A stretch of 40,912 nucleotides of DNA from an uncultured bacterium (GTDB lineage Bacteria > Bacteroidota > Bacteroidia > Bacteroidales > CAIWKO01): positions 1 to 40,912 of the forward strand of contig CAIOYH010000095.1 of the NCBI GenBank assembly GCA_903862465.1, given 5' to 3'. Within the stretch, counting starts at the first letter, position 1; the number at the start of each line of letters is the position of its first letter. This document shows, one piece after another, positions 4,480 to 39,573 of the stretch. The notes under the pieces were generated by a model. That model was not told where the DNA came from, ran no database searches, and was given only the letters and a program-made list of their open reading frames with translations. Both the position numbers and the translations under genes were made by a program.

Positions 4480-4731
4480 ATTCAAAATATTGAATGCTGC
4501 ATTCGTTTTGAATGTAGGGACATCCATTTTAAATGTATGCACATTGATATTAAATGTAGGTACATTTATGTTGAATGTCAGGACATTCGTTTTAAATGTA
4601 GGAAAATTTATCATTGATTCAGGTGCTGTCATTTTAAATGTAGGTACATATTTTTTAAATGGAAGTAAATAAATTATAGATGTAGGGACATTTGTTTTGA
4701 ATGTAGTAATATTTATGATGAATGGATGTAC
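4480..4731. repeat. Tandem array, 12 units of exactly 21 bp (array 1)
   Basis: Twelve consecutive 21-base units, for example those starting at 4501, 4522, 4543, 4564 and 4585. The unit core is TTTTAAATGTAGGTACATT, with boundaries at ATTNATTTT. Units differ from each other at several positions, yet the register is kept without any insertion or deletion over 252 bases. Short open frames exist on both strands (4490-4672 plus, 4438-4632 minus). They encode heptad-like repeats simply because 21 is a multiple of three; neither covers all units, so I do not call a gene. The period equals two turns of B-DNA. Confidence 0.93.
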
Positions 4732-8514: not shown

Positions 8515-9963
8515 TTAGGATTTGTAATGATCCATTTCGACGCCATTCGCATCATACAATTTAATATCTAGCGGCATCTTGCCCAAAGCATGCGTAGCAC
8601 AGCTCAAACAGGGATCATAAGCCCTGATGGCTATTTCTACAGCATTTTTCATAGGTTCGGTTATCACAGGCTGACCATTCATCATGTTCTTTGCAACAAA
8701 ATTAACGGATTGATTCATGGGTTCGTTGTTGTTGGTGGTCGAAACAATAAGGTTCGCCATTTCAATAGCATCATTATCATCAATTCTGTAATGATGAAAC
8801 AAAGTTCCGCGCGGTGCTTCAATCAAACCAACGCCTTCTTTTCCTTTTTTACCTTTAACTACAAGATCGTCTTTTTGCAAATCCGGATCGAGCAATAGTT
8901 CTTTCAACACTTCACCTGAGTGCAACAATTCAATTAATCGTGCCCAATGGGTATGCAAACAGTAATTGTTGGGTTTGCCGTTAGTATGTGCTTTGTAAAT
9001 CTCGAATTCTTTCTGCGCTTTTGGAGAAGGAATAAAATCGGCAGTATTTAAACGAGCTAAAGGACCCACGCGATACCAACCTTTTTCTTTGCCGATATGT
9101 GTCAAGTAAGGGAATTTCATATAGCTCCAATTCTTTACTTCTTCTTCGATGTAGTTATAGTAGTCTTGATAGTCAACATCGTCGAGGATTTTATTACCAT
9201 TGGCATCCACAGCACGCAACACACCATGATACAAATCCAAAGCACCATCTTTGCGAACAAGACTAAGATGATTGGAAGGGAAATACGCAAAACCATCGAC
9301 AAAATCGCGGTTCTTCATGTAATATCCTTTAAAGAATTGCAATGCACCGTCTGCCCAATCTATCATTTTATCAATATTCATGGGGTCAGCACCTTTCAAA
9401 AAGATGTCGCGTTCTTCAATCGTTAGGTTTTTGTTTATCCCTCCGGGGATGGCTCCCGTTCCGTGAATCTTTTTGCCGGCAGTGTGTTCAATAATCTCTT
9501 GACCAAACTTACGCATCAATACGCCTTGAGTAGCCAATTCGGGGAAATTAATGGCAACGCCTATCACATTCCGAATTGCAGGATCAGCATCATAACCCAA
9601 AAGGAAATCAGGAGATGCAAGATGAAAAAAATGTAAAGCATGGGATTGAAACATTTGTCCGTAATGCATCAAACGTCTCATCTTTTCGCCCGTGGCAGTC
9701 AATCCATGACCGGTTCCGGCACCAACAATTACGTCCAATGCCTTTGCAGCAGCCAAATGATGGCTTACGGGACATATACCACATAAACGTTGCACCAATA
9801 CAGGAGCTTCCCAATACGGACGACCTTGAACAAAACGTTCAAATCCGCGAAATTCTACAATATGGAGTCGCGTCTGAGCCACATTCATATTATCATCGAG
9901 ATGTATGGTTACTTTTCCGTGACCTTCCACTCGAGTTACAGGTTCTATAGTTACTTTTTTCAT
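8515..9963 (-). CDS. hoxH: NAD-linked [NiFe]-hydrogenase large subunit HoxH
   Basis: 482 residues, close to the roughly 480-490 of group 3d large subunits. The N-terminus carries the family start (EPVTRVEGHGKVTIHL). The L1 motif RLCGICPVSHH has C61 and C64; the C-terminal L5 motif DPCLSCATH has C452 and C455. These four cysteines bind the Ni-Fe(CN)2CO centre where H2 is split or formed. The 24 residues after H458 (ALGKMPLD to the end) are the propeptide removed by HoxW. Gene order F-U-Y-H-W and lengths match the Ralstonia/Cupriavidus soluble hydrogenase. In this genome hoxH is separated from hoxY by 702 bases holding a four-helix-bundle gene and short repeats, so cotranscription with hoxFUY is not certain. 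Confidence 0.95.
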   Translation of the reverse strand: MKKVTIEPVTRVEGHGKVTIHLDDNMNVAQTRLHIVEFRGFERFVQGRPYWEAPVLVQRLCGICPVSHHLAAAKALDVIVGAGTGHGLTATGEKMRRLMHYGQMFQSHALHFFHLASPDFLLGYDADPAIRNVIGVAINFPELATQGVLMRKFGQEIIEHTAGKKIHGTGAIPGGINKNLTIEERDIFLKGADPMNIDKMIDWADGALQFFKGYYMKNRDFVDGFAYFPSNHLSLVRKDGALDLYHGVLRAVDANGNKILDDVDYQDYYNYIEEEVKNWSYMKFPYLTHIGKEKGWYRVGPLARLNTADFIPSPKAQKEFEIYKAHTNGKPNNYCLHTHWARLIELLHSGEVLKELLLDPDLQKDDLVVKGKKGKEGVGLIEAPRGTLFHHYRIDDNDAIEMANLIVSTTNNNEPMNQSVNFVAKNMMNGQPVITEPMKNAVEIAIRAYDPCLSCATHALGKMPLDIKLYDANGVEMDHYKS

Positions 9964-10000
9964 TATTAATATTTTTTTCGTTATAATTGCTTTTTACTTC

Positions 10001-10106
10001 GTGTCACTTAGGGGGCATTTGCTGCGCGTCATTTTGCTTCGCGTCATTTACTTCGTGTCATTTACTTCGTGTCATTTATGGTCATTTATTATTATTGATG
10101 GTCATT
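10001..10106. repeat. GTCATT short-repeat tract upstream of hoxH
   Basis: GTCATT occurs at 10028, 10043, 10057, 10071, 10081 and 10101 (with GTCACT at 10003), spaced 10-20 bases. Between copies stand variants of TTACTTCGT and TGCTTCGC. The tract runs into the 3' end of the four-helix-bundle gene, whose last codons (TNDHQ and stop) are themselves repeat sequence. It is the downstream half of a repeat region that brackets this gene; see 10491-10662. Confidence 0.85.
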
Positions 10107-10466
10107 GGTGGTTGGTTTTGGACCGATGGAATTGATATAGTTGTTTAATTTTATACCGATAATGTTGATTTGATTCATGAACATAGTATAATCATTTTCG
10201 TTAATCAACTTGCGATTGAATGCCTTCACTAGCCAAGTTTTTGTTTCATATAACGAGCCTCTTGAATAATATCCAAAATGTTTTGCCTCGTTAAAATGAT
10301 ACCTTCCATATCCTTCGCTTAAATTTGCTGCTATAGAATCAGAAGCTCGAACCAATTGTTTCCCAATGGTGTCTTTTGAAAAATAATCCCAAAGGATTAC
10401 TATCTCCCAAATTTTATCACCAAGTTCCATTGATAACTGATAAACTTGCAATTCATCTAACTTCAT
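10092..10466 (-). CDS. Four-helix-bundle protein of the S23/IVP family inserted in the hox operon
   Basis: 124 residues. The sequence MKLDELQVYQLSMELGDKIW, followed by IGKQLVRASDSIAANLSEGYGR, SRGSLYETKTWLVKA and a last amphipathic helix, fits the 23S rRNA intervening-sequence protein family (PF05635-type four-helix bundle; related to Avd). The hallmark IxxNLSEGYGR is clear. Members are found in rRNA intervening sequences and scattered singly in Bacteroidota genomes; their molecular function is not settled. Here the gene lies between hoxY and hoxH, same strand, and is flanked on both sides by AATGAC/GTCATT repeats. Its last six codons (TTNDHQ) are encoded by the repeat. This suggests arrival together with the repeats. 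No role in hydrogenase assembly is evident. Confidence 0.88.
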   Translation of the reverse strand: MKLDELQVYQLSMELGDKIWEIVILWDYFSKDTIGKQLVRASDSIAANLSEGYGRYHFNEAKHFGYYSRGSLYETKTWLVKAFNRKLINENDYTMFMNQINIIGIKLNNYINSIGPKPTTNDHQ

Positions 10467-10490
10467 ATAAATTTAAAACTACAGATTATA

Positions 10491-10662
10491 AATGACTATT
10501 AATTACTTTAAAACTAATGACCTCTTCAATGACTATTAATGACTACTAATGACTTTCTTTAATGACCTCCTCAATGACAATTAATGACCTCTTCAATGAC
10601 TACTAATGACTTCTTCAATGACCATTAATGACCTTTTCTAATGACCATTAATGACCATAAAA
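10491..10662. repeat. AATGAC repeat tract between hoxY and the four-helix-bundle gene
   Basis: Fourteen copies of AATGAC start at 10491, 10516, 10528, 10538, 10548, 10561, 10573, 10583, 10595, 10605, 10617, 10627, 10640 and 10650. Spacings alternate mainly between 10 and 12-13 bases, so pairs repeat about every 22-23 bases (type AATGACCATTAATGACC). ATTAAT between copies makes many of them near-palindromic. The same word set recurs at 20770-20806. The tract would be transcribed within the hox message. Confidence 0.9.
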
Positions 10663-10665
10663 GGT

Positions 10666-11214
10666 TTAATCAAATTTTACTAGTTCATAAGGGATATTTA
10701 ACTCATCACCCGTTACCAAGGCAACAACAGCAGCCCAAATGAGGTCAGCTTTTGGTGGACAGCCGGGTAAGTAGTAATCAATTTTCACGATTTCATGACA
10801 TGGATATACTTTATCTAAAATCATGGGGAGTTCTTCATCATTTGGCAAAATTCTTTCGGTGTTTCTGCCAACCGTTGGACCTTTCAAGTATGCTTCTTCA
10901 ATACATTCTTTAACGTCAATGCCATTACGTAAGGCAGGTAATCCACCCATAATGGCACATTCGCCTAAAGAAATCAGAATCTTGCAATGTTTGCGGAATT
11001 CTTTCAACACGTGGATGTTTTCACTGTTGCAACAACCGCCTTCAATGATGCCAATATCACATTCTTTGGTGAATGTTTTTATATCGTCAATAGGCGATTT
11101 ATTAAATTCAACTAAATCTATAAGCTGAAGTATTCTAGCGTCAATATCAAGAATTGCCATGTGACATCCGAAACACCCTGCTAGAGAAGTTGTAGCTATA
11201 ATTGGTTTACTCAT
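10666..11214 (-). CDS. hoxY: NAD-linked [NiFe]-hydrogenase small subunit HoxY
   Basis: 182 residues, the short small-subunit form typical of soluble bidirectional hydrogenases. It has no twin-arginine signal and no C-terminal ferredoxin-like extension. C14 and C17 (LAGCFGCHMA), C86 (SLGECAIMGG) and C152 (LPGCPPKAD) are the four ligands of the proximal [4Fe-4S] cluster, which passes electrons between HoxH and the HoxU/HoxF diaphorase. The start is 18 bases after the hoxU stop, consistent with one operon. The gene following it in the operon is, unusually, not hoxH but a four-helix-bundle protein. Identification is firm. Confidence 0.94.
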   Translation of the reverse strand: MSKPIIATTSLAGCFGCHMAILDIDARILQLIDLVEFNKSPIDDIKTFTKECDIGIIEGGCCNSENIHVLKEFRKHCKILISLGECAIMGGLPALRNGIDVKECIEEAYLKGPTVGRNTERILPNDEELPMILDKVYPCHEIVKIDYYLPGCPPKADLIWAAVVALVTGDELNIPYELVKFD

Positions 11215-17529: not shown

Positions 17530-18243
17530 TGCATTTCCTATAGTAGGACTTGCGTTGTCTTTGTCATAGCTTGCAATATCTTTATAATGATGTCACTTCC
17601 ATAGCTATTATGTTTTTTTTACAAGATATAGATATGCCTTATCTTTATGATGATATGTCTTCCCTAGCTATATTGTTTTCTTTATTAGATAAAGTGATGC
17701 CTTATCTTTATGATGATATCCATTCTCTAGCTATATTGTTTTCTTTACAAGATAAAGTGATGCCTTTACTTTATGATGATTTGCATTATCTTTATAACTA
17801 TATGCGTTCTCTAGCTAATTACTTTCCTTTACAAGATAAAGATATTCCTTTTCTTTATGAAGATTTTCGTTGTCTTTATAATGATATGCCTTGTCCTTAT
17901 AATGATTTGTTTTGTCTCGATAATGTCATGCGTTATCCTGATTATGTTGCACTTTGTCTTTATAATAGTATGTGTTGCCATTGTAATGTTACGCTTTGCC
18001 CTTGTAATAGTTTGTCTTGACATTATAAGGAAATGCGTTGACATGATTAGGATTTGTGTTGTTATTATAATGTAATGCGTTGTCATTATAATGATTTGTT
18101 TTGCCATGATAAGGAAATGCGTTATCTTGTTTTGGAATTGCGTTGTCTTAACATTAGGATGCATTTCCATGATAATAACTTGCCAATCTTTTCGATGGAT
18201 ATGGATTATGTTTATAAGGATTTTCATAAGCTTAGTCTCTGAT
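17530..18243. repeat. Tandem array, 34 units of exactly 21 bp (array 2)
   Basis: Units begin at 17530 and then every 21 bases to 18223 (for example 17551, 17635, 17761, 17866, 17887, 18076). The commonest unit starts TGCGTTGTCTTTATAATGAT. Units 17635-17760 also form a higher-order 63-bp repeat (three units) in two near-identical copies. Units differ at up to half their positions, but I found no insertion or deletion in 714 bases. Weaker unit-like sequence extends upstream to about 17467. No single frame is open along the whole array: the longest plus frame stops at 18020 and the longest minus frame covers only 17829-18248. Confidence 0.94.
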
Positions 18244-19533: not shown

Positions 19534-19974
19534 ATGGAAAATATGGACGAAATCGAATCAAATCAAAATGAGGCAACGGGGATTCATGTTGAGAATATCG
19601 TGAATTATTGGATTGAAATGTCTGAGAACGATTATGGCTCTATGATAGATTTCTATAATATCAAACGTTATAATTGGTCATTGTTTATTGGTCATTTGGT
19701 AATTGAAAAACTGATTAAAGCGGTTTATGTGAAGACACATCACAAACATCCGCCATTTATTCATGATTTGTTGAAACTGATTACAAGATGTAATGTGCAA
19801 ATCACCAACGAGCAGATGGATATTCTTGATACTATAACTACCTTTAATATAAATGTGCGTTATGATGATTACAAGTTAGCATTCTATAAGCAATGCACAC
19901 CTGAATATACCGAGAAATGGATTAATAATATAAAAACAATTAGACAATGGATACAAAACACGCTGTTGAAATAG
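19534..19974 (+). CDS. HEPN domain protein (partner of the downstream nucleotidyltransferase)
   Basis: 146 residues, mostly helical. The core NWSLFIGHLVIEKLIKAVYV, followed by PPFIHDLLKLI and INVRYDDYKLAFYKQ, fits the PF05168-type HEPN fold; the RYDDY piece corresponds to the family's usual RYPDY. HEPN proteins paired with MNT nucleotidyltransferases are known toxin-antitoxin systems, in which the HEPN partner is an RNase or is AMPylated by MNT. Here the RxxxxH motif of active HEPN RNases is not seen; R and the tyrosines are present but no His follows at the right spacing. The gene overlaps the MNT gene by 28 bases, so the two products are made together. Activity is therefore uncertain. Confidence 0.85.
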   Translation: MENMDEIESNQNEATGIHVENIVNYWIEMSENDYGSMIDFYNIKRYNWSLFIGHLVIEKLIKAVYVKTHHKHPPFIHDLLKLITRCNVQITNEQMDILDTITTFNINVRYDDYKLAFYKQCTPEYTEKWINNIKTIRQWIQNTLLK

Positions 19975-20273
19975 TAAATAAATACGTTTCATTTTTAGTG
20001 AATGAGCAAAAGCTAAATTTATATCAGGTTTTTTTGTTCGGTTCTTATGCCAAAAACAACTCAAGCAATGAAAGTGATATTGATGTTGCCATCGTGTTCC
20101 AAAATTTACCCGACCGTTTGGACATGCAATTAAAACTGATGAAATGGAGACGCAACTTTGATTTATCCATCGAACCACATCCTTTTGATAAATTGGAATT
20201 CAACAGAAACAATCCTTTTGCAAATGAAATTATTACTACAGGGTTGAATTTGACATTAGAAAAGTATGCGTAA
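19947..20273 (+). CDS. MNT-type minimal nucleotidyltransferase (antitoxin-like)
   Basis: 108 residues, standard for MNT proteins. FGSYAKNN (31-38) and SDIDVAIV (43-50) form the motif GSxxxx...DxD with D44 and D46 as metal-binding residues; all are present, so catalysis is likely intact. In studied HEPN/MNT systems the enzyme adds AMP to a tyrosine of the HEPN toxin and so silences it. The start codon lies inside the HEPN gene (28-base overlap), which favours coupled translation and fixes the order HEPN first, MNT second. No further toxin or phage gene adjoins. Confidence 0.9.
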   Translation: MDTKHAVEIVNKYVSFLVNEQKLNLYQVFLFGSYAKNNSSNESDIDVAIVFQNLPDRLDMQLKLMKWRRNFDLSIEPHPFDKLEFNRNNPFANEIITTGLNLTLEKYA

Positions 20274-20640: not shown

Positions 20641-20769
20641 ACAATGAAGAATTCAATCATTTGGCACAGCATTCAACTTACATCGCCTCTTCATTTCAGA
20701 CTCTGCCCAAATCAATCAACAATAGAACAATCCAACAATTCAACAATCTAACAATCCAACCATCTACCC

Positions 20770-20806
20770 AATGACCACAAATGACCATTAATGACCACAA
20801 ATGACT
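20770..20806. repeat. Second AATGAC repeat tract, at the 3' end of the LytTR gene
   Basis: AATGAC occurs at 20770, 20780, 20790 and 20800, ten bases apart, with CACA or CATT between copies. The last copy overlaps the stop codon of the LytTR gene at 20805. The words are the same as in the hox tract (10491-10662) but no four-helix-bundle gene is present here. Confidence 0.85.
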
Positions 20807-37429: not shown

Positions 37430-37742
37430 TAAAGCCCTAACATACAAGCCGATTCACAAACACTAGCTTAAAAGCTAGGGTTAATATTTTTTAGAAAATA
37501 ATATACTTTTGTTCAAAAAACTTAAAAAGATAATCCTAGCCTTCAGGCTATGCCTGCCAAAATGAACAAATAATAGGACTATAATCCCAAAAACCTCCAT
37601 CTAATAACCCTAGCCTTCAGGCTAGGGCTCCCGAAATGACGTATCCTAGGACTTTAGTCCTGAAAACCTCCAATTATTAACCCTAGCTTTTAAGCTAGGG
37701 CTTTCGAAATGAACTAATCATAGGACTTTAGTCCTGAAAATT
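37430..37742. repeat. REP/BIME cluster, four copies with one inverted
   Basis: Each copy has hairpin A (CCCTAGCCTTCAGGCTAGGG at best) and hairpin B (AGGACTTTAGTCCT). Three copies are direct repeats with a period of 73-74 bases (starting 37531, 37604, 37678). A fourth, at 37430-37485, lies in the opposite orientation (B first, then A reversed). Flanking text such as CGAAATGA and CTAATCATAGG is also shared. This is the layout of RAYT-mobilised bacterial interspersed mosaic elements. Confidence 0.88.
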
Positions 37743-37830
37743 TAATAGTACCCAATATATATAAGGTAAAAAACCGCACCATTAAAATCCCAACAACGGG
37801 CAGCTCTCTCATGATAGTGGGCAATCTCCT

Positions 37831-38155
37831 CTCAATAAACATGAATTTGGTCACTATAGAGATGAATTTACCCTTTGTAGAGATGAATGACCTCTCTATA
37901 GACATTAATAAGCCCTCTATAGACATTAATTTGTTCTCTATAGAAATGAATATGTCCTCTACAGAGATGAATGGGTCTTTTATAGAGATGAATTTGTCCT
38001 CTATAGACATGAATGAGCTCTCTATAGAAATGAATAAGCTCTCTATAGAGATGAATGAGCTATTTATAGACATGAATGAGCTATTTATAGAGATGAATTT
38101 GCAATTTATAGAGATGAATTTGTCATTTATAGAGATGAATTTGTCCTCTATAGCG
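37831..38155. repeat. Tandem array, 15-16 units of exactly 21 bp (array 3)
   Basis: Fifteen full units begin at 37831 and then every 21 bases; the unit reads CTCTATAGAGATGAATTTGT plus C, with a partial sixteenth at 38146. Variable positions are mainly bases 1-2, 10, 13 and 17-21. No insertion or deletion was found. A plus frame (37811-38206) and a minus frame stay open through it, giving heptads such as LSIEMNE and FISIEDK; neither has an obvious promoter or leader, so I list this as a repeat and not as a gene. Confidence 0.93.
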
Positions 38156-38204
38156 TTCTACAAAATCTCCAAACAGCCTATTGACCTGTTTATAATAAAT
38201 AATT

Positions 38205-38352
38205 AGATTTATTTGGTGTTTTGATCTTAAAATTTGATATTTGGAGCTTGGAATTTGGTATTTGGAGCTTAAAACATAGTGTTTGAACCTTAAAAAATGG
38301 TATTTTGTCTTTCGTCTATAAAATTTGGAACTTAGATTTTGGTATTTGGAGC
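38205..38352. repeat. Degenerate TTTGG-type repeat after array 3
   Basis: From 38221 on the words ATTTGGAGCTTGG, AATTTGGTATTTGG and ATTTGGAACTT recur with imperfect spacing of 9-11 bases, interrupted by unrelated bases. They run to the 3' end of the GT87-like gene at 38353, and partly into it. The same words occur at 14190-14240, 34921-34960 and 40721-40755. Confidence 0.7.
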
Positions 38353-39573
38353 TTAGTATTTGGTATCTGAAACTTGGGATTTGTCCTTTTTTTTCCAAAA
38401 AACAACAATTGCCATCCCAATCAATCCCAAATTGCTCAGACCCAAAGCCCCTATGTCGTCGAAGAAATGGGCGATGGTGGCACCTACTATGTCTTTGGAG
38501 TTGATACCATAGAATAGGAAAAGGATGGCTAGGGAGATGAAAAGGGAGAGGCGTTTGAGTTGGAAGCTTGTGTAGATGAGCAGGGCGATGAGGGGGAGGG
38601 TGTAGAGAAAATGTTCGGTGTCGGTGTTGAGGATGTTGGGTAGGAGCGCCATGAGGATGAATGATTCGAAGATGAAGTTGCGGTCGTGAGGTTGGAGGGA
38701 CGCGGGTAGGGTGGCTGCTATGGATTTGTTGCGCAGGAAGAGAAGCACATAGGCGAGCGCTACGGAAAGTAGGAGGGCATATTGGAACCATGAGGGGGGG
38801 GCGATGTGGAGAAAACGGTTGAGGAAATAGGATATGTTGTTTTGGGTGGGGAAGGAGGAGGAATGGTCGAGGATGGCTTTTGCCCATAGTGTGTGGAGTT
38901 TGAGGGTGGCGCTCCAACCAAAGAGCGCCATAAATAGGAGGTATTGCGCCAAGGCGAAGGCGATGCCTCCGCGGAGGATGTTCCATTTTTTATGTAATAG
39001 GATGGGCAAGGCGAGGATGAGGAAGAAGGGTTTGAATAGGATGACCAAGCCAAATAGGGTGCCTGCGAGGATATATTGGAAGCGCAGCAAGTGGCGGATG
39101 GTGAGCAAGAGGAGGAGCAGTAGGAGGATGTTGGTGTTACCGAGATGGAGTTCGCGGTGGAGCAAAGAGAGGACGAAGATGAGTGTGGCGGAGAGTGTCC
39201 ATGCTTGGTGAGGGGCGGGTTGGGGGAGGAAATAGCGTTCGATGAAGTGTTTGAGCAGGACGAATATCCATAGTACGCAGAAGACGATGAGGAAAAAATA
39301 GATGGTGGCGGCAAGGTTGTAGGGCAAGAATGTGAGGGGCGCGAATAGGAGCAGGACAAAGGGGGAGTATTTGTAGAAGCCCGAGTCTAAACCAAAGGGG
39401 ATTCCATAGACTTGGGTGCCTTGGAGTAAGGATTTTGAAGCCAAATAATATACTTTGAAGTCGTTGAGCCAAAAGCGTCCGTTGATGTTTTCGGAGACGA
39501 AAATCAGGAGGCAAACAGCGACGAGGAAGATGGCAAAGCCTATGGGTAACAAGCGGTTTGAGTTTTGCTTCAT
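38353..39573 (-). CDS. GT87-like (DUF2029) membrane glycosyltransferase
   Basis: 406 residues with about ten hydrophobic segments. An early NDFKVYYLASKSLLQGTQVY, followed by GFYKYSPFVLLLFAPLTFLP, is the GT87/DUF2029 signature; the Asp in NDFKVY is the likely catalytic base. Such enzymes move mannose or similar sugars from polyprenyl phosphate donors to outer acceptors. The first helix (LLPIGFAIFLVAVCLLIFVS) is the membrane entry. The coding strand is unusually pyrimidine-rich, and the GC content is clearly higher than in the neighbouring genes. It is transcribed away from the SPFH gene, with 138 bases between the start codons. Sugar and acceptor cannot be told. Confidence 0.85.
   Translation of the reverse strand: MKQNSNRLLPIGFAIFLVAVCLLIFVSENINGRFWLNDFKVYYLASKSLLQGTQVYGIPFGLDSGFYKYSPFVLLLFAPLTFLPYNLAATIYFFLIVFCVLWIFVLLKHFIERYFLPQPAPHQAWTLSATLIFVLSLLHRELHLGNTNILLLLLLLLTIRHLLRFQYILAGTLFGLVILFKPFFLILALPILLHKKWNILRGGIAFALAQYLLFMALFGWSATLKLHTLWAKAILDHSSSFPTQNNISYFLNRFLHIAPPSWFQYALLLSVALAYVLLFLRNKSIAATLPASLQPHDRNFIFESFILMALLPNILNTDTEHFLYTLPLIALLIYTSFQLKRLSLFISLAILFLFYGINSKDIVGATIAHFFDDIGALGLSNLGLIGMAIVVFWKKKDKSQVSDTKY

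Follow-up and report, generated by a model that had tools for sequence, protein, structure and literature searches.

The hydrogenase junction

The DNA considered here (the window, 40,912 nt) is the entire contig CAIOYH010000095.1 of an uncultured member of the Bacteroidales (GenBank assembly GCA_903862465.1). Its minus strand carries a hydrogenase operon in which a short gene, bracketed by arrays of short repeats, stands between the genes for the small and large hydrogenase subunits. By their Pfam matches, the products of the operon are a diaphorase-type protein, a HoxU-like protein, a HoxY-like small subunit and a HoxH-like large subunit. The hoxH and hoxY genes lie on one strand either side of the short gene, 702 nt apart. 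The short gene belongs to PF05635, the family of 23S rRNA intervening-sequence proteins (IVPs), and the junction is laid out as follows:

8515..9963, minus strand: hoxH-like large hydrogenase subunit (PF00374, Pfam match), neighbour downstream of the IVP gene
9999..10106, minus strand: downstream arm, with 6 exact AATGAC copies on the gene strand (GTCATT on the plus strand) plus degenerate copies; ends set by eye
10092..10466, minus strand: IVP gene (PF05635, 23S_rRNA_IVP, S23-type four-helix bundle), 124 aa, sense to the hox operon; Pfam E 7.2e-25
10491..10656, minus strand: upstream arm, with 14 GTCATT copies on the gene strand (AATGAC on the plus strand); inverted match to the downstream arm
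10666..11214, minus strand: hoxY-like small hydrogenase subunit (PF01058, Pfam match), neighbour upstream of the IVP gene

The window IVP scores 87.7 bits against PF05635, for which the Pfam cut-off is 33.8, and covers positions 2–105 of the 106 in the profile. Its structural relative by sequence is PDB 2gsc (E 1.7e-4), and the family profile has 2gsc and 2rld as solved relatives by sequence; the solved Xanthomonas relative is described as a pentamer (PMC4990558). PF05635 was the only domain matched at E ≤ 0.001, i.e., no transposase domain appeared in the window IVP, and the Pfam scan found no Y1 tyrosine transposase in it.

The two arrays form an inverted pair around the gene. The strand split of the 20 exact copies is complete, since all 6 on the left read GTCATT on the plus strand and all 14 on the right read AATGAC. 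When the upstream flank is matched to the reverse complement of the downstream flank, the window's arms score 32 (maximum for 20 swapped flanks: 22). The window as a whole contains 43 copies of AATGAC versus 30.1 expected, a count reached by 1 of 100 shuffles, and 20 of the 43 fall inside the 702-nt insert. The upstream-arm copy nearest hoxY is about 10 nt past the hoxY stop codon, and the downstream arm overlaps the final codons and stop of the IVP gene.

A preliminary description of this DNA had reported an IVP-type gene with GTCATT/AATGAC repeats on both sides, which the PF05635 match and the repeat counts confirm; it did not state that the arrays are inverted. It was also right that the last codons of the gene are themselves repeat sequence (ACC AAT GAC CAT CAA TAA). 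This repeat-coded tail exists because a downstream arm can begin inside the open reading frame (ORF), as it does in 39 of 131 IVP genes with such arms (armed genes). The same description held that hoxY and hoxH normally adjoin, and they do: they are 12–26 nt apart in 21 of 23 relatives, versus 702 nt in the window.

These spacings come from a hoxY search of 149 genomes, which gave 30 loci, of which 24 were used, the window's own among them (two cut by contig ends and four of low identity were dropped). The 21 short gaps contain no array. Like the window's own genome, G015 has an IVP gene with AATGAC arms at this junction (555 nt), and G290 has a gap of 98 nt that holds a gene-less periodic array. 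In the genomes nearest in hoxY sequence (90% and 86% identical) the junction is empty, and in G015 (80%) it is occupied, so either gain has been repeated or loss has been frequent.

Mirrored arms at other junctions and in other genomes

Occupied and empty versions also exist at a second junction, etfB–etfA, for which 28 of 30 genomes could be used, the window's own included (etfB was missing in two). Two of the 28 have intact IVP genes, which belong to different subfamilies and have different motifs. One more junction (L272) looks like a decayed IVP gene with arms, as read from the letters; the profile search did not report it. The gap is 12–50 nt in 19 genomes and a gene-less 69–159 nt in six; one of these six contains a hairpin that is clear against shuffles, two are periodic by autocorrelation alone and three are indistinguishable from background. 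Among the gene-less gaps at the two junctions, only L267 stands out as a hairpin, with a score of 33 (maximum of 40 single-base shuffles: 18). L228, L270 and L288 are periodic, with 7/8-nt autocorrelations of 0.62–0.87 (a figure without a shuffle control), and L265, L276 and L285, at 0.40–0.42, do not stand out from background.

The window's genome contains six PF05635 genes. Five lie between mirrored arrays whose motif differs from gene to gene: TTTAGACT, GTCATT, TATTGTT, AAGTACTT and CCAAATT. When the upstream flanks of the six loci are matched to the reverse complements of their downstream flanks, the true partner scores 32–69 and any other 16–24. The locus without an array, L004, scores 33 through one weak pair of about 15 nt, the core of which is no commoner in own-genome stretches than elsewhere; those stretches were taken partly from contigs known for AATGAC arrays, which biases motif densities for AATGAC. 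L004 occurs at the same site in all three congeners, and the congeners' copies score 22, 17 and 15, i.e., they lack arms. With a single pair and such relatives, L004 could not sustain the statement that all six IVP genes are armed, which we dropped, but it is still entered as armed in the phylum-wide arm count and in the periodicity, motif–protein and mismatch analyses.

L004 and its congener copies (L042, L047 and L048) encode a longer IVP (147–159 aa) that lacks arrays and that each of the four genomes in the genus keeps at one site; they are perhaps domesticated members with a host function. No IVP locus of the congeners, whose genomes are 81–96% complete, shares a site with L001, L002, L003 or L005, and L006 has only a weak, one-sided flank match. 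Within this small genus sample, then, the unarmed type is vertically inherited and the armed ones are patchy.

Mirrored arms are common well beyond this genus. In the window's phylum, 49 of 76 IVP genes reach an inverted flank score of 28, counted here as armed, versus 36 of 1520 swapped flanks and 12 of 76 flanks in direct orientation (79 loci gave 77 genes, L049 yielding none, and one gene was dropped for a short flank). In named contigs from many phyla, the figures are 62 of 88 IVP genes versus 22 of 630 control ORFs (Mann–Whitney p 4e-35), or 9 of 215 for control ORFs with intergenic space on both sides. This named set comprises the 80 top-ranking matches out of at least 583, with 88 of 93 genes used, and leans to canonical members of the family. 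By group, sorted by hand from record titles, the armed IVP genes are 36/51 in Bacteroidota and kin, 14/21 in Patescibacteria and 12/16 in other phyla; the control ORFs are 12/367, 9/154 and 1/109. Viral contigs contribute a further 16 armed of 20 distinct IVP genes (24 loci), and some of these genes differ very little. The swapped flanks, the direct orientation and the control ORFs together rule out chance or AT-rich sequence as the cause of the arms. None of the 80 named loci, a set that includes short ones, contains the exact conserved 23S motif of the sarcin-ricin loop.

Seventeen control ORFs have arms scoring at least 30. Three are of mobile type: an IS200-like (Y1) transposase, by our reading of the REP-associated tyrosine transposase (RAYT) type, an IS1595-type transposase and a DUF559 gene. 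Several of the 17, four of them from one contig (L133), look like plain AT-rich chance matches. The DUF559 gene (L184:11675-12118) stands between inverted C-rich/G-rich short repeats and may represent another gene family built in this way.

Across 168 genes, the 114 armed ones have a repeat period of 7 nt (mean autocorrelation 0.458 versus about 0.27), some of 8 nt; AATGAC-type repeats are longer, mostly 8–12 nt. The median distance between the upstream stop codon and the beginning of the arms is 1.5 nt, and that between the end of the arms and the following start codon is 9.5 nt (82 genes). Orientation could be counted for 156 of the 168 genes (two with far neighbours and ten without a neighbour in the locus were left out): 122 run in the direction of both neighbours, 4 run against both and 30 are mixed.

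Among close relatives (at least 55% protein identity), motifs tend to go with the protein and not with the site. For 140 armed genes, we scored a pair as sharing a motif when at least 25% of arm 6-mers were common to both. By this measure, a motif is common to 16 of the 32 different-site pairs with proteins ≥65% identical, to 27 of 209 at 55–65% and to 75 of 9376 below that, and sharing in the adjacent non-arm DNA is at most 0.1% in any identity class. Mantel tests give p 0.001 for arms and 0.99 for adjacent flank DNA (a 121-gene run gave 0.0015). Same-site pairs, defined by flank homology, share a motif in just 3 of 74 cases below 55% identity and 4 of 25 at 55–65%; because this sharing is low, the site does not fix the motif, and orthologous copies often change theirs.

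Individual subfamilies illustrate the trend, as judged by eye. Among the seven relatives of the window IVP at ≥50% identity, five (L241 and L243–L246) have AATGAC, AATTAC or AATGTC on both sides. AACAAT arms occur at seven loci nearer to L003 (L248, L250, L251, L256, L259, L261 and L262), and AATTTC arms at L249, L254 and L255. Single motifs also cross phyla: AAGGCACAGAGGCAC occurs in two genomes of the window's phylum and one Nitrospirae contig, and AGTAGTCAGTAGC in one Acidobacteriaceae and one Deltaproteobacteria contig.

Interpretation and alternatives

We conclude that gene and arms are one mobile or formerly mobile unit, akin to the intervening sequences (IVSs) of rRNA genes but located in operons. 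The occurrence of this unit across many phyla suggests a widespread, overlooked kind of selfish element. For the window, we give a probability of roughly 0.6 to the 702-nt insert being a member of a widespread class of compact elements, each a PF05635 gene in inverted tandem-repeat arms, placed in the sense direction between the stop codon of one operon gene and the start codon of the following one.

A mechanism can be proposed from these patterns. The arms would be the ends of the element, and the IVP most likely recognises its own repeat, acting as the factor that binds the arms; protein and repeat would then diversify together because the one binds the other. Movement would be rare, with catalysis supplied by a separate, putative partner. 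Gene-less arrays of the same motifs may be remnants or derivatives mobilised in trans, as REP sequences are for RAYT genes, and sense insertion at a stop/start boundary would let the operon promoter express the IVP gene while sparing the host genes. The fullest version, which we advance tentatively and at somewhat under even odds, is a class of selfish “operon intervening sequences” that spans phyla: a minimal four-helix bundle would recognise the short repeat belonging to it, the two would co-diversify as a readable code, insertion would be precise at stop/start boundaries and genomes would be seeded with gene-less arrays. If true, it would supply PF05635 proteins with a function and explain a large share of the otherwise unexplained short-repeat arrays of such genomes. 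The mirrored arms single out, for each IVP subfamily, a repeat as candidate ligand, and they suggest where many of the short-repeat arrays between bacterial genes could come from, as well as a new type of insertion tied to the junctions of operons.

The preliminary description had proposed that the gene “travels with or grows from” its array. Travelling is supported, and in a stronger form, given hox sites empty of both gene and repeats, inverted arms, and a motif that tends to follow the protein (at ≥55% identity) to unlinked sites. Growth from an array is not, as there is no array at the 21 empty hox junctions, which likewise contradict insertion into pre-existing arrays. The genome's other IVP genes have other flanks, which rules out AATGAC as a general tag of PF05635. 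A TNDHQ-like tail is no family trait either (among the proteins listed, only the window IVP ends so), nor is the repeat itself specific to such genes: for AATGAC alone, the outcome is the one that the preliminary description said would refute it (repeats as frequent away from such genes), with 91 of the 100 matches listed lying outside the insert. The specific feature is the mirrored bracketing rather than the mere presence of a repeat.

Known systems share parts of this architecture. The 23S IVSs of Coxiella and Leptospira are similarly compact, with a PF05635-type ORF inside terminal inverted repeats; the Coxiella one encodes S23p, ends in a terminal stem of 28 bp, carries heptamer repeats next to its ORF (compare the short-repeat arms here) and is excised by RNase III in vitro, and the role and origin of IVSs were still described as unclear more than 25 years on from their discovery (PMC4990558). 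PF05635 ORFs are also reported in 16S and 23S insertions of CPR (Candidate Phyla Radiation) bacteria (PMC11270868). However, the window element lies between hoxY and hoxH, not inside a 23S rRNA gene, and the arms here are mostly tandem arrays whose motif varies with the protein. RAYT genes are bracketed by inverted short repeats, with gene-less REP copies dispersed in the genome, much as AATGAC and AACAAT are here, but the window protein matches PF05635 only and no Y1 transposase, and the repeats here are tandem units of about 7–12 nt, not single palindromes, with several motifs per genome. Occupied and empty sites are reminiscent of IS-like transposable elements, but the window IVP has no transposase domain, and almost no recent dispersed copies were seen among the genes compared.

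Two further comparisons are more distant. Avd of diversity-generating retroelements is described as a relative of PF05635 proteins by sequence and structure (PMC10053308), but the window IVP is alone in the hydrogenase operon among the genes scanned, with no search aimed at a reverse transcriptase or template repeat. The TAACTGA heptamer arrays of Beggiatoaceae, Cyanobacteria and some Bacteroidetes are likewise intergenic short tandem repeats of scattered phyletic distribution, reported as direct and mostly just upstream of start codons (PMC4679880). The terms S23, four helix, IVP and 23S are absent from the main text of that paper, and the titles and abstract openings listed from the open-licence literature contain no account of IVP genes in inverted repeat arms outside rRNA.

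Several observations weigh against our preferred reading. The element gave no match to a catalytic domain, and inspection of the hox junction by eye revealed no target-site duplication, although the gaps there are too short and diverged for certainty. Active transposition was not seen: copies within a genome are mostly too diverged for DNA alignment, and among 27 genes in 20 chosen stretches there were no near-identical dispersed copies, the exception being one tandem pair. The window IVP is not basic (pI 6.8 versus a median of 8.9 for 140 armed IVPs), and L004, found throughout the genus, appears to be a family without arms that is passed on vertically. Arms are missing at our threshold from 26 of the 88 IVP genes in named contigs, and direct repeats are also commoner beside IVP genes than beside controls (15.9% versus 5.2%).

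The tie between motif and protein has its own weaknesses. It comes largely from two or three subfamilies, and the pairs are not independent. Same-site pairs at ≥65% identity have a motif in common in just 5 of 14 cases. Two of the window IVP's relatives at ≥50% identity, L242 and L247, lack the motif (scores 24 and 23), and in L244, from G054, the relative richest in AATGAC arrays, AATGAC stands on both sides in direct rather than inverted orientation (score 23). The L004 and L244 exceptions lower our confidence slightly. Among 79 relatives, AATGAC arrays occur in 12, window-type IVPs in 13 and both in 5, a weak co-occurrence (Fisher p 0.023). AACAAT arrays occur in 10 of the 13 relatives with a related IVP versus 16 of 66 others (p 5e-4), but the reversed control is high in some genomes (184 against 147 in G013), and G069, the richest in AACAAT arrays, has no IVP of this subfamily.

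The main competing explanation places the function of the arms in RNA: they would pair in the polycistronic mRNA, loop out the IVP gene, bring the upstream stop and the downstream start near each other and be cut by RNase III as in 23S IVSs, with selection acting on an RNA helix. The Coxiella IVS is a direct precedent, the arms span from stop to start codon in genes that are mostly sense to the operon, and the 702-nt RNA folds more stably than 20 of 20 shuffles (z -2.75), part of which comes from a local hairpin in the upstream arm. Selection on a helix predicts an excess of wobble pairs, but the arm–arm mismatches comprise 106 G-U versus 168 A-C, a ratio of 0.631 where base composition predicts 0.637, and G-U is again the rarer in two more lenient scorings; we therefore find no signal of helix selection through wobble pairs. 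Nor would pairing alone be expected to tie motif to protein. We consider this explanation unlikely as a full account, though it and a mobile element can both be partly true.

Two host-centred explanations fare considerably worse. That the arrays are ordinary intergenic repeats of the host, where IVP genes insert or are tolerated and where slippage and template switching mirror the two sides, would fit the many gene-less arrays of AATGAC, AACAAT and other motifs in the genome. It seems improbable given the 21 array-free hox sites, the rarity of mirrored flanks at control genes of the same contigs, and a motif that tends to follow its protein across sites and, in single cases, across phyla. A role for the IVP as a host regulator of its operon, with the arms as a regulatory hairpin, draws on the sense orientation and location inside operons and on a protein family described as having no known function (PMC4990558); L004, kept across the genus and lacking arms, may be a member domesticated in this way. 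Presence is nevertheless patchy (2 of 24 hox junctions and 2 intact genes at 28 etf junctions, own genome included), a single subfamily is found at sites whose flanks are not homologous and two different subfamilies share the etf junction, and we regard a regulator as more improbable still.

Gene-less arrays and other repeats

Our preferred reading, a mobile or formerly mobile gene-and-arms unit, leaves gene-less arrays as possible remnants or trans-mobilised copies. The window's genome has 277 three-copy AATGAC matches (179 + 98; reversed control 0) and 76 AACAAT array matches (reversed control 1). Nine of the 100 AATGAC matches listed are in the hydrogenase insert, and none of those listed is within 8 kb of another IVP gene. 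Several gene-less arrays among 18 sites viewed start at a stop codon. One array in the window combines the motifs of two IVP genes:

20713..20805, plus strand: gene-less compound array found by repeat scan, with AACAAT octamers (the motif of the L003 IVP) directly followed by AATGAC decamers (the motif of the window IVP)

A few hundred bases upstream of it, a HEPN-domain ORF (19534-19974) overlaps a nucleotidyltransferase ORF (19947-20273), and the two are likely a HEPN/MNT toxin–antitoxin pair.

Recent duplicates within a genome, which could map the ends of the element, are limited to the tandem pair at L331 (G030:C67), where two adjacent IVP genes lie in a tandem duplication of about 540 bp that includes the arms. 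The most similar pair at different sites in one genome, in the set compared, is L249/L255, at 83% protein identity.

Other repeat classes are also present. At L192, L198, L199 and L203 of the window's genome, the families CCAAATT, CACGGAGACACGGAG, CACTAAGAACACTAAG and GTCTAAAGCCTAAA often adjoin in compound arrays, and some of them resemble IVP arm motifs of other genomes. Degenerate arrays of period 21 (also 42/63), a class distinct from the 7–12-nt arrays, occur in the window at 4500-4706, 17577-18176 and 37829-38383, with similar ones elsewhere in the genome (L016, L018 and L035). Finally, about three copies of a 73-bp unit with the palindromes CCTAGCCTTCAGGCTAGG and AGGACTTTAGTCCT lie at 37530-37740 of the window.
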